A stretch of DNA of 59,504 nt, from the NCBI GenBank assembly GCA_001725415.1, contig MEGH01000004.1, forward strand, positions 1-59,504, written 5' to 3'. Source of the DNA: Pseudonocardia sp. SCN 73-27 (GTDB lineage: Bacteria > Actinomycetota > Actinomycetes > Mycobacteriales > Pseudonocardiaceae). Under the pieces are notes generated by a model. The model saw nothing but the letters and a program-made list of their open reading frames with translations, searched no databases and had not been told where the DNA came from. Positions 52,784 to 57,680 of the stretch are shown here, piece after piece. A program made the position numbers and the translations under genes. Each line of letters starts with the position of its first letter. The first letter of the stretch is position 1.

Positions 52784-54190
52784 TCACACGGTCGCCGCTG
52801 CGGTGCGCCAGCCCTGGTGGTAGGTCTCGCGCGCCATGGCCGCGAACGGCGCCGGGCTCACGATGGCGCGCACCGCGAACTGCTCGTGCGGCTCGACGGT
52901 CGTCTTGCGCGACCCGCCGTTCGGCTCGCCCCACAGCACCCGCACCTCGGCACCCAGCGGCACGTCCGGGTCGATGGTCGCGAGCGAGAGGGCGCGCTTC
53001 TCGTTGGCGCTGTAACCGGTGAACAGCGACAGCCCGATGATGCGGCCGTCGGCGTCGACGATCGAGTCGTAGTTCGACGAGCCGTAGTTCGCATTGGGGA
53101 TGTCGAAGAACTGGTACTCGGGCCCGTCGAGGTCGAACGGCGAGGCCAGCAGCGTCGTGACGTCCTCGGCGTTCCAGGCCAGGGTCACCTTGCGGCGCTG
53201 GGTGTCCGGGTCGATCGCGGCCAGCGCGTCGCGGCCGACGAAGTCGTGGTCGAACTTCACGAACGAGCCGTAGCCCAGCTCCCACGGGTTGAGGTAGTAG
53301 TCCTCGATCCGGTCGGACACGAAGCTGCCCGCCAGCGCGTTGGTCGACTCGTAGCCGACGGCCGGCAGCCACTCGCGGTAGGCGCGCAGCCCCTCACCGG
53401 TGTAGACGGCCGGCAGCGGCGAGGGGATCCAGCCCGACTCCAGCGTGTTGCACGAGTACGCCCGCGCCCCGGCCGGCTCGATCCCGAACTCGGCGCCTGC
53501 CTCCAGGATCGTGTCGCGGACGCGGTCGTAGTACTCGTACGGGCCCCACAGCTCCAGGCCCGGGGCGCCGGCCATGCCGTGGCGCAGCGTGCGGACCTGC
53601 TGTCCGCCGACGTTCATGTGCCCCATGCGGAAGAACCGCACCTGCTCCAACGGGCCGCCGTGGACCTTCTCGATGACCTCCCACGCGCGCGGGCCCTGGA
53701 TCTGGAACCGCCACACGTCGCGGGTCACCGGCTTGCCGTAGGGGCGGGAGGGGGAGCGGTCGTCCTTGCGGACGTCGACGTCGTAGCCGGTGGACGCGGT
53801 GAACGTCAGCCAGTTCGCGACCGGCGCGCGGCCGACGAACACGAACTCGTCCTCGGCGAGCCGGAACAGGATGCCGTCGCCGATGACGCCGCCGTCGGGG
53901 GAGACGGGCACGAACTGCTTGGCCGAGTCGACCGGGAACGTCGCCGTCGAGTTGATGCCGGTGTCGATGAACAGCTTCAGCGCGTCGCGGCCCGAGACCC
54001 ACAGGTTGACCATGTGGTGGGACTGGTCGAACAGCACCGCCGTCTTCTGCCACGCCTTGACCTCGCGCCGGAAGTTCGTGAACTCCGCGGGCACGACGGG
54101 GTAGACGTACGCCCCGATCTGCGAGTCCCGCAACAGCCCGACGGTGTCGCCAGCGGCGTCCAGCACGTCCTGCAGGTTCTTGGCGCTCAT
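52784..54190 (-). CDS. ligM: Tetrahydrofolate-dependent aromatic O-demethylase (LigM/DesA-type, GcvT fold)
   Basis: 468 residues, matching LigM (about 471) and DesA of Sphingobium. GcvT/aminomethyltransferase fold: [95 protein letters not shown], and the C-terminal [21 protein letters not shown] block. It moves the methyl of vanillate, syringate or 3-O-methylgallate to tetrahydrofolate, giving the catechol and 5-methyl-THF. Divergent from ligA with a palindromic operator between, and near metF and purU, which recycle the folate-bound C1. Choice between LigM- and DesA-like substrate use is not possible by eye. Confidence 0.85.
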
Positions 54191-54297
54191 GTCCGTCCGT
54201 TCTCTCGAGATGCGCGCCCGGCGCGCCCGCTGTCCTCACGCTAGGAGCCGGGTACCCCGGGCGGGACGGCTCGATGGCGGGGCCGCGACGGGTCATT

Positions 54298-54328
54298 TGA
54301 CGTACCCGACCAGCGTGGGGGTACGTCA
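54298..54328. promoter_or_regulatory. Operator palindrome between ligM-like and ligA genes
   Basis: TGACGTACCC (54298-54307) and GGGTACGTCA (54319-54328), exact 10-base arms, 11-base centre; flanks CATT/TTTG extend the symmetry with mismatches. It lies in the 265-base divergent intergenic region, so one regulator could act on both directions. No regulator gene is adjacent. Confidence 0.6.
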
Positions 54329-54455
54329 TTTGTCCCGCAGCACAACGGTCGGGTGCGTGATGGCCCCGGGCCCCGGCGGGAATTACGGTCGGGGGACGAC
54401 GGTCGCCGGCGTCCGTCCCACATCGGAATGCCGGCCCGAGCTTGGGAGCGGCCAG

Positions 54456-55702: not shown

Positions 55703-55792
55703 GACCGTCTACGTCAGTTGTCGCGGTCGGGTCCGGTCATCCGCGTCATCCGGGGGTCCCCCTCGCCTCCTTACCGTCGAGGAAGGCCAGGG

Positions 55793-55996
55793 AAGGCACA
55801 CGAGCACGCGCTGCTGTCGCTCGCGACCCTCGACACCGCGCACGCCGCGCCGGGCACCGAGGTCACCGTCGTCTGGGGCGAGGACCCCGTCACCGCGAAA
55901 CCGCAGGTGGAGGAGCACACCCAGCGCGAGATCCGGGCGACGGTCGCGCCCGCCCCCTACGTCCAGTTCGCCCGCACCCGGTATCGGAGCAGTTGA
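55793..55996 (+). pseudogene. 3' remnant of a second LigM/DesA-type O-demethylase gene
   Basis: About 67 codons to TGA 55994-55996. The reading AHEHALLSLATLDTAHAAPG followed by TEVTVVWGEDPVTAKP and REIRATVAPAPYVQFARTRY aligns with the last 70 residues of the intact O-demethylase at 52784 ([20 protein letters not shown] and on), with many substitutions, so it is a paralogue rather than a recent copy. The first ~400 residues are missing. Its TGA overlaps the metF ATG by one base, showing that the lost gene once headed the metF-purU operon. Confidence 0.7.
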
Positions 55997-56823
55997 TGAC
56001 GACGAGGCCCACCGATTCCCGCACCGCGTTCGCCGACGCGATCCGCCGCGCCGGCTACGAGGTGCTGCCCTTCCCCAGCGCCCACGACAAGGTCCTCGCC
56101 CACGTTCCGGCCGAGGTGCCGCTGACCGTCACCACGACCGAGGCCAAGGGCCTGGAGCCGACGCTCGACCTCGCCGTCCGGCTGCGCGCCGCCGGCTACC
56201 GGGTGGCACCGCACCTCGCGGCCCGGCTGGTCCGCGACAAGGAGCACCTCACCGACATCGCCGCCCGCCTCGGCGAGGCCGGCGTCGACCGGCTGTTCGT
56301 CATCGGTGGCGACGCCGCCGAGCCTGTGGGCGTGTTCCCCGACGCGCTCAGCCTGCTCGAGGCGCTGGGGGACACCGGGTACTCGTTCGAAAGCGTCGGC
56401 ATCGGCGGTTACCCCGAGGGCCACGGCCGCATCCCCGACGCCGCCCTGTCGCAGGCGTTGCGGGACAAGGCCCCGTACGCGACGCACGTCGTCACCCAGC
56501 TGTGCTTCGACGCCGCGACGACGACGCGCTGGGCTGCTCGTGCCGGCCTTCCCGTGCACGTCGGGGTGCCCGGCGCCGTGAGTCGGCAGAAGCTCATCCG
56601 CGTCTCCGCCGGGCTCGGCCTCGGCCAGTCGGCGCGGTTCCTGGCCAAGCAGCAGAGCATGTTCTGGCGGTTCTTCCTTCCCGGCGGCTACCGCGCCGAC
56701 CGGCTCCTCGACCGCCTCGCCCCGGGGTTCAACGGTCCGCTGGCGGGCATCCACGTCTTCACCTTCAACGACCTGGAGGCGACGGAGGCGTGGCGAGAGC
56801 AGCTCCTGGCCCGGCTGTCGTGA
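55996..56823 (+). CDS. metF: Methylenetetrahydrofolate reductase (MetF-like)
   Basis: 275 residues from ATG 55996. TIM barrel of the MTHFR family: VPLTVTTTEAKGLEPTLDLA, LFVIGGDAAEPVGVFPDALS, GIGGYPEGHGRIPD, THVVTQLCFDAATTTRWAAR, and GIHVFTFNDLEATEAWREQL. In methionine synthesis it makes 5-methyl-THF. Beside a LigM-type demethylase it more likely runs in reverse, oxidising the 5-methyl-THF formed from aryl methoxyl groups to methylene-THF, as proposed for sphingomonads. Coupled by GTGA to purU and by TGATG to the demethylase remnant. Confidence 0.88.
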   Translation: MTTRPTDSRTAFADAIRRAGYEVLPFPSAHDKVLAHVPAEVPLTVTTTEAKGLEPTLDLAVRLRAAGYRVAPHLAARLVRDKEHLTDIAARLGEAGVDRLFVIGGDAAEPVGVFPDALSLLEALGDTGYSFESVGIGGYPEGHGRIPDAALSQALRDKAPYATHVVTQLCFDAATTTRWAARAGLPVHVGVPGAVSRQKLIRVSAGLGLGQSARFLAKQQSMFWRFFLPGGYRADRLLDRLAPGFNGPLAGIHVFTFNDLEATEAWREQLLARLS

Positions 56824-57680
56824 CCGCGCATCGCGGCGTGCTGCTGCTGTCCTGCCCGGACGCCCCCGGCATCGTGTTCGCGGTGTCGGAGCTGCTCGTC
56901 CGCGAGCGGTGCACGATCGTGCAGAGCCAGCAGTTCGGCAGCGCGACCAGCGGGACGTTCTTCATGCGGGTCGAGTTCGCCCACGTCGACGGCTCGTCGC
57001 TCGACCTCGACGCCCTGCGCGCCGCGGTGGCCGTCCTCGCCGACCGGTTCGACATGACCTGGCAGCTCGCCGACGCCGACCGCAGGCTGCGGACCGTCCT
57101 CATGGTCAGCCGCTTCGCCCACTGCCTCGACGACCTGCTGTTCCGCACCGAGATCGGCGAGCTGCCCCTCGACGTCGTCGCCGTCGTGTCCAACCACCCC
57201 GACCTGGGCCGCGTCGCCTCGCGGTACGCCATCCCGTTCCGGCACATCCCGGTCACGCGCGACACCAAGGCCGACGCCGAGGCCGCGCTGCTCGACCTCG
57301 TGCGGGACGAGGGCGTCGAGCTGGTCGTGCTGGCCCGCTACATGCAGATCCTGTCCGACGGGCTGTGCACGCAGCTCGCGGGCCGCGCGATCAACATCCA
57401 CCACTCGATGCTGCCGAGCTTCAAGGGCGCCAAGCCCTACCACCAGGCCCACGCGCGCGGGGTGAAGTTCATCGGCGCCACCGCGCACTACGTGACCGCC
57501 GACCTCGACGAGGGGCCGATCATCGAGCAGGAGCTGATCCGTGTCGACCACTCCCTGACGCCCGACCAGCTCGCCGCCCGCGGCCGCGAGGCCGAGACGC
57601 GCGCGCTCGCCCGTGCGGTGCGCTGGCACTGCGAGAACCGGATCGTCGCGCTCGGGAACCGGACCGTCGTCTTCTCCTGA
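56820..57680 (+). CDS. purU: Formyltetrahydrofolate deformylase (PurU)
   Basis: 286 residues from GTG 56820. N-terminal ACT domain (GVLLLSCPDAPGIVFAVSEL), then the formyltransferase fold: AVVSNHPDLGRVASRYAIPF, the active-site block AINIHHSMLPSFKGAKPYHQ, and GATAHYVTADLDEGPIIEQE with the catalytic Asp. It hydrolyses 10-formyl-THF to formate and THF. In this operon it would free THF for LigM and release methoxyl carbon as formate. Methenyl-THF cyclohydrolase (FolD) must be encoded elsewhere. Ends nine bases from the convergent small regulator gene. Confidence 0.92.
   Translation: MTAHRGVLLLSCPDAPGIVFAVSELLVRERCTIVQSQQFGSATSGTFFMRVEFAHVDGSSLDLDALRAAVAVLADRFDMTWQLADADRRLRTVLMVSRFAHCLDDLLFRTEIGELPLDVVAVVSNHPDLGRVASRYAIPFRHIPVTRDTKADAEAALLDLVRDEGVELVVLARYMQILSDGLCTQLAGRAINIHHSMLPSFKGAKPYHQAHARGVKFIGATAHYVTADLDEGPIIEQELIRVDHSLTPDQLAARGREAETRALARAVRWHCENRIVALGNRTVVFS

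Follow-up and report, generated by a model that had tools for sequence, protein, structure and literature searches.

Why does an actinobacterium carry, side by side, a LigM-type O-demethylase, a LigAB-type ring-opening dioxygenase and two folate enzymes, and which lignin-derived acids would such a set serve? The question is raised by bases 1-59504 of contig C4 of Pseudonocardia sp. SCN 73-27 (genome of 6.95 Mb in 99 contigs), a stretch of 59,504 nucleotides that we call the window. The locus in its last quarter is probably a pruned version of a module for methoxylated lignin acids that is conserved among actinobacteria, and it would still serve vanillate and 3-O-methylgallate after the loss of its syringate branch. 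This reading is based on gene content, homology, a gene remnant, gene order shared with relatives, and the co-occurrence of genes across genomes. The genes concerned are the following.

52784-54190, minus strand: ligM, 468 aa; predicted tetrahydrofolate (THF)-dependent vanillate/3-O-methylgallate O-demethylase, from profile NF047885, the solved structures 5x1i/5tl4 and a tree
54456-54815, plus strand: ligA, 119 aa; small subunit of a LigAB-type extradiol dioxygenase, Pfam LigA 115.3 bits
54808-55656, plus strand: ligB, 282 aa; catalytic subunit, predicted to open the ring of 3-O-methylgallate (or gallate)
55796-55996, plus strand: C-terminal remnant of desA, 66 codons and a stop that overlaps the metF start
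55996-56823, plus strand: metF-like, 275 aa; divergent methylenetetrahydrofolate reductase (MTHFR)
56820-57680, plus strand: purU; formyltetrahydrofolate deformylase, TIGR00655 322.5 bits (cut-off 285.95)

Gene calls and ratios of nonsynonymous to synonymous substitution (dN/dS) came from custom scripts, and for purU we took the GTG at 56820 as the start where the gene caller chose 56838. The frames of ligM, ligA, ligB, the metF-like gene and purU are all open and coding-like, and against Pseudonocardia sp. KRD291 their dN/dS values are 0.27 for ligM and ligB, 0.31 for ligA, 0.37 for the metF-like gene and 0.38 for purU.

Is the demethylase a true LigM? An earlier, sequence-only reading of this DNA had named it so and asked for a phylogeny, and both the identity and its placement are borne out. 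The protein scores 886.3 bits on NF047885, the equivalog model for vanillate/3-O-methylgallate O-demethylase (cut-off 580), and falls under the cut-offs for DesA (596.6 bits, cut-off 800), GcvT (75.5, 300) and dimethylsulfoniopropionate (DMSP) demethylase (47.6, 410). Among solved structures it is closest to 5x1i and 5tl4 (E 4e-216 and 5e-216), and it is 66% identical to LigM of Sphingobium SYK-6. If the SYK-6 row is numbered from 5, the fitting one of four offsets, and the catalytic tyrosine and its neighbors bear the residue numbers that we assume, Y29, Y31, H60, R122 and Y247 align with Y28, Y30, H59, R121 and Y245 of the window protein. In a quick tree of 100 rows, four DesA rows serving as outgroup, it clusters with the LigM rows and not with DesA. 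GcvT and DMSP demethylase were compared by profile score alone, the tree holding neither, and both identities were rejected on those scores.

The locus had also been called sphingomonad-like. As a statement of recent import this does not hold up, since the same tree gathers 87 actinobacterial rows into one group (Shimodaira-Hasegawa-like approximate likelihood ratio test, SH-aLRT, 98) and sets apart a second group (SH-aLRT 98) of two gammaproteobacterial bins, SYK-6 and Novosphingobium, the latter with two identical rows. Rhizobiaceae rows fall outside both, and the branching order among the groups is unsettled in this tree, which has open forks and a long-branch warning (L198) and excludes gene calls of 400 aa or less. 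Recent transfer of ligM from sphingomonads was rejected on this grouping, with a reserve, because the sphingomonad rows are few: two different LigM rows and one distant LigM-like row. LigM is at the same time present in many actinobacterial genera. A match at E<=1e-60 occurs in 38 of 397 genomes of the order, its own included (14 of 85 genera), 33 of them exceeding 800 bits and hence LigM-grade; the two same-genus genomes listed among the 397 have no match at that threshold. A scan of named genomes gave at least 79 LigM loci, nearly all in Actinomycetota. The Rhodococcus opacus plasmid pRop44186_a, typed mobilizable, carries the complete cluster together, so that transfer among actinobacteria is plausible.

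What, then, has been pruned? The earlier reading had MetF and PurU follow LigAB; both are indeed there and are THF-linked, the MetF being divergent, and what was overlooked is the 66-codon tail in between. This tail matches the DesA model NF047633 at positions 388-451 of 453 (E 1.3e-17), matches the end of the LigM model more weakly, and is 70% identical to the end of DesA in Pseudonocardia xinjiangensis. Four of the relatives' loci (L084, L087, L089 and L163) have a complete desA immediately before metF, L163 with folP and pabB between ligB and desA. The order in the other three is ligM on the minus strand, then ligA, ligB, in some cases folP, desA, metF, folD and purU, the fuller cluster thus also carrying desA, presumably for syringate. 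In the KRD291 locus, the part of that genome to which the search was confined, no desA lies at that place and about 100 bases separate ligB from the called metF. No complete desA was found in the window genome, where ligM is the sole LigM/DesA match at E<=1e-60 and GCV_T matches number four in all. The tail, with ligM as the sole match of its kind, indicates that the syringate demethylase of the fuller cluster is lost here, and the strain is predicted to use vanillate and 3-O-methylgallate without the DesA step for syringate. Taken together, the window, P. xinjiangensis and KRD291 show a staged loss of the cluster's syringate branch.

Which ring is opened after demethylation? LigB scores 378.4 bits on NF009903 (cut-off 317), matches chain 1b4u_B at E 1.2e-98 and is 51% identical to SYK-6 LigB over 276 residues. 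In the position numbers that we take for the SYK-6 active site, H12, H61, H195 and E242 align with window H12, H59, H194 and E241, so that metal ligands and catalytic histidine are kept; complete LigA and LigB with all four LigB active-site residues, as claimed from the sequence, are confirmed. LigA has diverged further, with 40% identity to SYK-6 LigA over 111 residues, and lies below both equivalog cut-offs for the protocatechuate 4,5-dioxygenase alpha subunit (109.3 bits against 161, and 96.6 against 108.6). At the position of SYK-6 F103 the window protein has Met, as do 35 of 38 LigA rows from clusters, window included, the others being one Tyr, one Leu and one gap; this count, like the adjacency and motif counts below, was made over loci L083-L181 and includes some genomes twice. 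Among controls, Met stands at this position in both betaproteobacterial rows, Phe in both Arthrobacter-type rows and in Sphingobium xenophagum, and Val in Novosphingobium pLA3.

Ring opening of protocatechuate yields a semialdehyde, which is oxidized by the dehydrogenase LigC. Ring opening of 3-O-methylgallate yields the methyl ester CHMOD, which is cleaved by an alpha/beta-hydrolase (PMC8091115, PMC6888825, PMC12314914), and the Phe at alpha-103 is reported to control C5 selectivity (PMC10094722). A search for LigC in the window genome gave five weak matches at E<=1e-10, the best at 61.9 bits (33% identity over 195 aa), and 110 of 112 searched stretches had no close LigC match, L157 and L140 having one. 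Two neighboring PcaGH-like intradiol-dioxygenase matches on contig C45 would offer 3,4-cleavage. Of the genes that the earlier reading wanted sought, no convincing LigC was found in the genome and a LigK-like gene is present (NF006731 336.5 bits, cut-off 179; TIGR02798 291.9, below its cut-off of 304.5); the 4-oxalomesaconate (OMA) tautomerase GalD was not found there. The LigK-like gene and a GalB-like hydratase gene (5cgz, E 2.7e-73) lie on contig C17 near a pair made up of a muconolactone-isomerase-like gene (139811-140086) and an alpha/beta-hydrolase gene (140143-140835). Among the solved relatives of the corresponding hydrolase in L083 are two methyl esterases, SABP2 and polyneuridine-aldehyde esterase, as well as hydroxynitrile lyases.

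The hydrolase travels with LigM and LigB. With scoring confined to the top few candidates of each genome, and with grade cut-offs of 800 bits for LigM, 470 for LigB and 260 for the hydrolase set post hoc at visible gaps in the lists, the 397 genomes of the order held 33 that were LigM-grade, 39 LigB-grade and 41 hydrolase-grade. All 33 LigM-grade genomes have both LigB and hydrolase, all 39 LigB-grade genomes have the hydrolase, and two genomes have the hydrolase without LigB. The link persists in genomes whose ligM and ligB are widely separated (G227, G336) and in the window genome, whose hydrolase gene is on a different contig. Genes were called in 73 of the 79 named loci, which extend to 10 kb or to the end of the contig; ligB is in 19 of these 73 and in 18 of the 20 loci of a second set. 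The 19 ligB-bearing named loci have a MetF-like gene in all cases, hydrolase and muconolactone-isomerase-like genes in 14 each, LigK, FolD and a response regulator in 13 each, PurU in 12, GalB in nine and DesA in eight; contrary to this pattern, three contain a ring-opening enzyme of the vicinal oxygen chelate (VOC) fold. Hydrolase and isomerase-like genes are adjacent on the same strand in 31 of 32 loci with both, and the hydrolase adjoins ligB on one strand in nine of 31.

The protocatechuate 4,5-route that the earlier reading envisaged is not supported in the window strain, the hydrolase and isomerase partners pointing to 3-O-methylgallate; with no close LigC and a tight hydrolase link, this is the better guess for the ring substrate, gallate being next. 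In the scheme that we favor, LigM would demethylate vanillate or 3-O-methylgallate with THF as the acceptor of the aryl methyl, the MetF-like enzyme would oxidize methyl-THF to methylene-THF, a FolD assumed to be encoded elsewhere in the genome would carry it on to formyl-THF, and PurU would hydrolyze this to formate and free THF. LigAB would open the ring of 3-O-methylgallate to a methyl ester and not to a semialdehyde: because the C5 group is an O-methyl, LigC would be unneeded. The C17 alpha/beta-hydrolase would cleave the ester, the muconolactone-isomerase-like protein would isomerize the product, and the GalB- and LigK-like enzymes would finish the route to pyruvate and oxaloacetate. A more tentative proposal, to which we give somewhat less than even weight, is that actinobacteria have their own complete 3-O-methylgallate route, with a dedicated LigAB, an alpha/beta-hydrolase methylesterase and a muconolactone-isomerase-family isomerase as a third unrelated solution besides the glutathione-S-transferase-like DesD of Novosphingobium and the NTF2-like MgaD of Pseudomonas. 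In the window strain the isomerase-family protein may also replace the OMA tautomerase that was not found.

Several points weigh against this scheme. The substrate of LigAB is judged from partner genes and could be gallate too, and the genome has eight LigB-family matches in all. Met at alpha-103 was rejected as proof of 3-O-methylgallate specificity, being present in both betaproteobacterial controls. GalD not having been found, the tautomerase step is given to the isomerase-like protein by assumption. Besides the post hoc grades and the choice among best candidates, 27 of the 33 LigM-grade genomes come from one family, so that their co-occurrence is a link and not a set of independent events, and within the fetched stretches 14 of the 19 LigB-bearing named loci include the hydrolase. 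A comparison of the hydrolase with the Novosphingobium pLA3 stretch, in which a hydrolase lies beside a LigM-like gene, gave no match at E<=1e-3. Now that only a tail of desA is left, it is less clear how 3-O-methylgallate would arise, perhaps through a Rieske demethylase; VanA_C has three matches in the genome, the best (61.6 bits, cut-off 23.5) being a Rieske gene on contig C47, which has no VanA name among its NCBIfam matches.

Could the ring instead be gallate? LigM would then convert 3-O-methylgallate to gallate, LigAB would open gallate to OMA, GalB and LigK would finish, and the hydrolase and isomerase-like protein would serve some other substrate. The name of the LigM family includes 3-O-methylgallate, GalB- and LigK-like genes are present and LigC is unneeded, yet this route leaves unexplained both the hydrolase in every LigB-grade genome and its place beside ligB in nine of 31 loci, and no GalD was found; we consider it unlikely. 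Less likely still is the SYK-6 type of route, in which LigM makes protocatechuate from vanillate, LigAB cleaves it at 4,5, and LigC, LigI, LigJ and LigK follow. The SYK-6 active site kept in LigB and the LigK-like gene would suit it, and the LigA of Paraburkholderia caribensis, which shares the Met at alpha-103, adjoins a Gfo/Idh/MocA (LigC-type) gene. Against it stand the weak best LigC-like match, the Gfo/Idh/MocA gene that Arthrobacter keyseri and Sphe3 do keep beside their dioxygenase, the sub-equivalog scores of LigA, and the PcaGH-like pair with its 3,4-cleavage. That the whole locus is a decaying island, its downstream genes elsewhere and the rest on the way out, as the desA remnant and the absence of folD between metF and purU (unlike in L084 and L089) might suggest, is highly improbable given five open frames with dN/dS of 0.27-0.38 and a retained two-component pair.

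How would the pruned module recycle its folate? The window MetF-like protein is, by its homology, a putative divergent MTHFR: it scores 23.7 bits on Pfam MTHFR against a gathering score of 24, and its nearest solved chain is 7xg9 (E 4.1e-26), which we take to be the SYK-6 enzyme, a literature search for the code having found no paper. The genome has five other MTHFR matches, one of them below the cut-off. PurU occupies the place that LigH has in SYK-6. The folate part extends beyond actinobacteria: plasmids from Novosphingobium pentaromativorans and Agrobacterium tumefaciens likewise have PurU beside a LigM-like gene and an MTHFR. FolD, FolP and PabB accompany the clusters of several relatives. 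Folate biosynthesis genes in clusters, named by eye in L084-L091 and by record annotation in L194 and L206, are folP (L084, L089), pabB (L085, L091, L194) and a dihydroneopterin aldolase gene (L206), as if to enlarge the folate pool. Genes of the MetE-like, cobalamin-independent methionine synthase family lie beside clusters at L045 6844-7986 (contig C17), L103 892-1989 and L198 5783-6901, and in Novosphingobium too; perhaps they provide a methyl sink into methionine.

The closest described systems resemble the locus in parts. The Sphingobium SYK-6 ligM-metF-ligH operon with LigAB (PMC6888825) shares a LigM relative, an MTHFR and a LigAB-type dioxygenase; in SYK-6 ligM is in an operon with metF, whereas window ligM is divergent from ligAB, and the window strain has PurU for LigH, no close LigC found and the hydrolase-isomerase pair in its genome. 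In Novosphingobium aromaticivorans DSM 12444, LigAB opens 3-O-methylgallate to CHMOD and DesC and DesD take CHMOD to OMA (PMC8091115, PMC6888825). LigM, LigAB and an alpha/beta-hydrolase for the methyl ester are common to both, the hydrolases being likened by class and not by homology, but DesD is listed as a glutathione-S-transferase (PMC12997858) where the window genome pairs its hydrolase with a muconolactone-isomerase-family protein. The linear syringate pathway of Pseudomonas sp. NGC7, MgaAB-MgaC-MgaD-GalDBC (PMC12314914), has in common a LigAB-like dioxygenase, an alpha/beta-hydrolase, a GalB-type hydratase and a LigK/GalC aldolase; it differs in a Rieske demethylase in place of the predicted THF-dependent one, in MgaD, of predicted NTF2 family, and in having GalD.

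It had further been suggested that a cassette of this kind would be a distinct actinobacterial route. Actinobacterial LigM is already published and hence is no first sighting, thermophilic metagenome-assembled genomes having a LigM-type gene in Micromonosporaceae and DesA-like genes in Solirubrobacterales and other actinobacteria (PMC9296663). In the available text of that paper no cluster with LigAB, hydrolase and isomerase is described, unlike the actinobacterial cluster here, and we found no description of a ligM-ligAB-hydrolase-isomerase cluster in the open-license papers searched. Operons for protocatechuate 4,5-dioxygenase are also annotated on Arthrobacter plasmids; that of A. keyseri pRE1, by its record annotation, shares LigAB-family ring opening and LigK with the window strain and differs in a fused alpha/beta dioxygenase, an adjoining Gfo/Idh/MocA (LigC-type) gene and no LigM in the stretch examined.

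What the cluster adds is a conserved actinobacterial combination of predicted THF-dependent demethylases, their own folate enzymes, a linked two-component pair and a candidate hydrolase-isomerase pair, in a field where, as far as the cited papers go, most of what is understood of the catabolism of S-type lignin acids comes from sphingomonads and one Pseudomonas. It offers new parts for lignin valorization, and the route could be tested in Klenkia taihuensis, Modestobacter, Blastococcus and Rhodococcus opacus with pRop44186_a.

How might the locus be controlled? The noncoding features are these.

54191-54455, no strand: divergent intergenic region between ligM and ligA, with the candidate operator ACGTCATTTG at 54323-54332
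55711-55720, plus strand: second candidate operator ACGTCAGTTG, upstream of the desA tail and metF
52739-52778, no strand: inverted repeat copy 1, 40 nt, just behind the ligM stop, terminator-like
55663-55702, no strand: inverted repeat copy 2, 40 nt, behind the ligB stop

The two-component pair lies at C4:59675-61776, 171 bases past the window, and its proteins are 60% and 71% identical to the clusters' pair. In the 79 kb of C4 that were scanned, the motif ACGTCANTTG has two copies, those at the operator positions above, and both lie in upstream regions of the ligM cluster. Across loci it was seen in 3/91 upstream regions of ligM, 2/23 of LigA, 3/42 of desA, 3/33 of MetF-like genes and 6/652 of others (shared regions and doubled genomes being counted twice), and it is a candidate site of the linked response regulator. 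After the pair, at C4:61950-63329 (L048 2446-3825), comes a major facilitator superfamily gene like those of aromatic-acid/H+ symporters (TIGR00895 325.7 bits, cut-off 418.55). The 40-nt repeat has perfect arms of 18 nt around a 4-nt loop, with a hairpin of -36.9 kcal/mol, and is dispersed, with 25 half-site matches in the genome; of the 13 sites read (5 of the 25 being unread), 11 are no more than 30 nt away from the end of a called gene. It is terminator-like, and the idea that its copies are the ends of a mobile cassette around ligM-ligA-ligB was rejected on those gene-end positions.

A second actinobacterial layout was also observed. In 19 of the 73 named loci, mostly from Microbacterium and kin, a single run of genes beside ligM encodes a VOC-fold extradiol dioxygenase together with OMA tautomerase, LigK and GalB, and the fetched stretches of these loci contain no ligB.

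VOC-layout loci: L125, L131, L134, L135, L137-L139, L141-L143, L145, L151, L153-L156, L161, L166, L176

To our knowledge, the known ring-opening enzymes for gallate and 3-O-methylgallate are of the LigB type. L160, a member of the VOC dioxygenase protein cluster, reaches 300.9 bits against a cut-off of 320.2 on the model for catechol 2,3-dioxygenase, and the VOC-fold enzyme may be a type I dioxygenase for gallate or 3-O-methylgallate.

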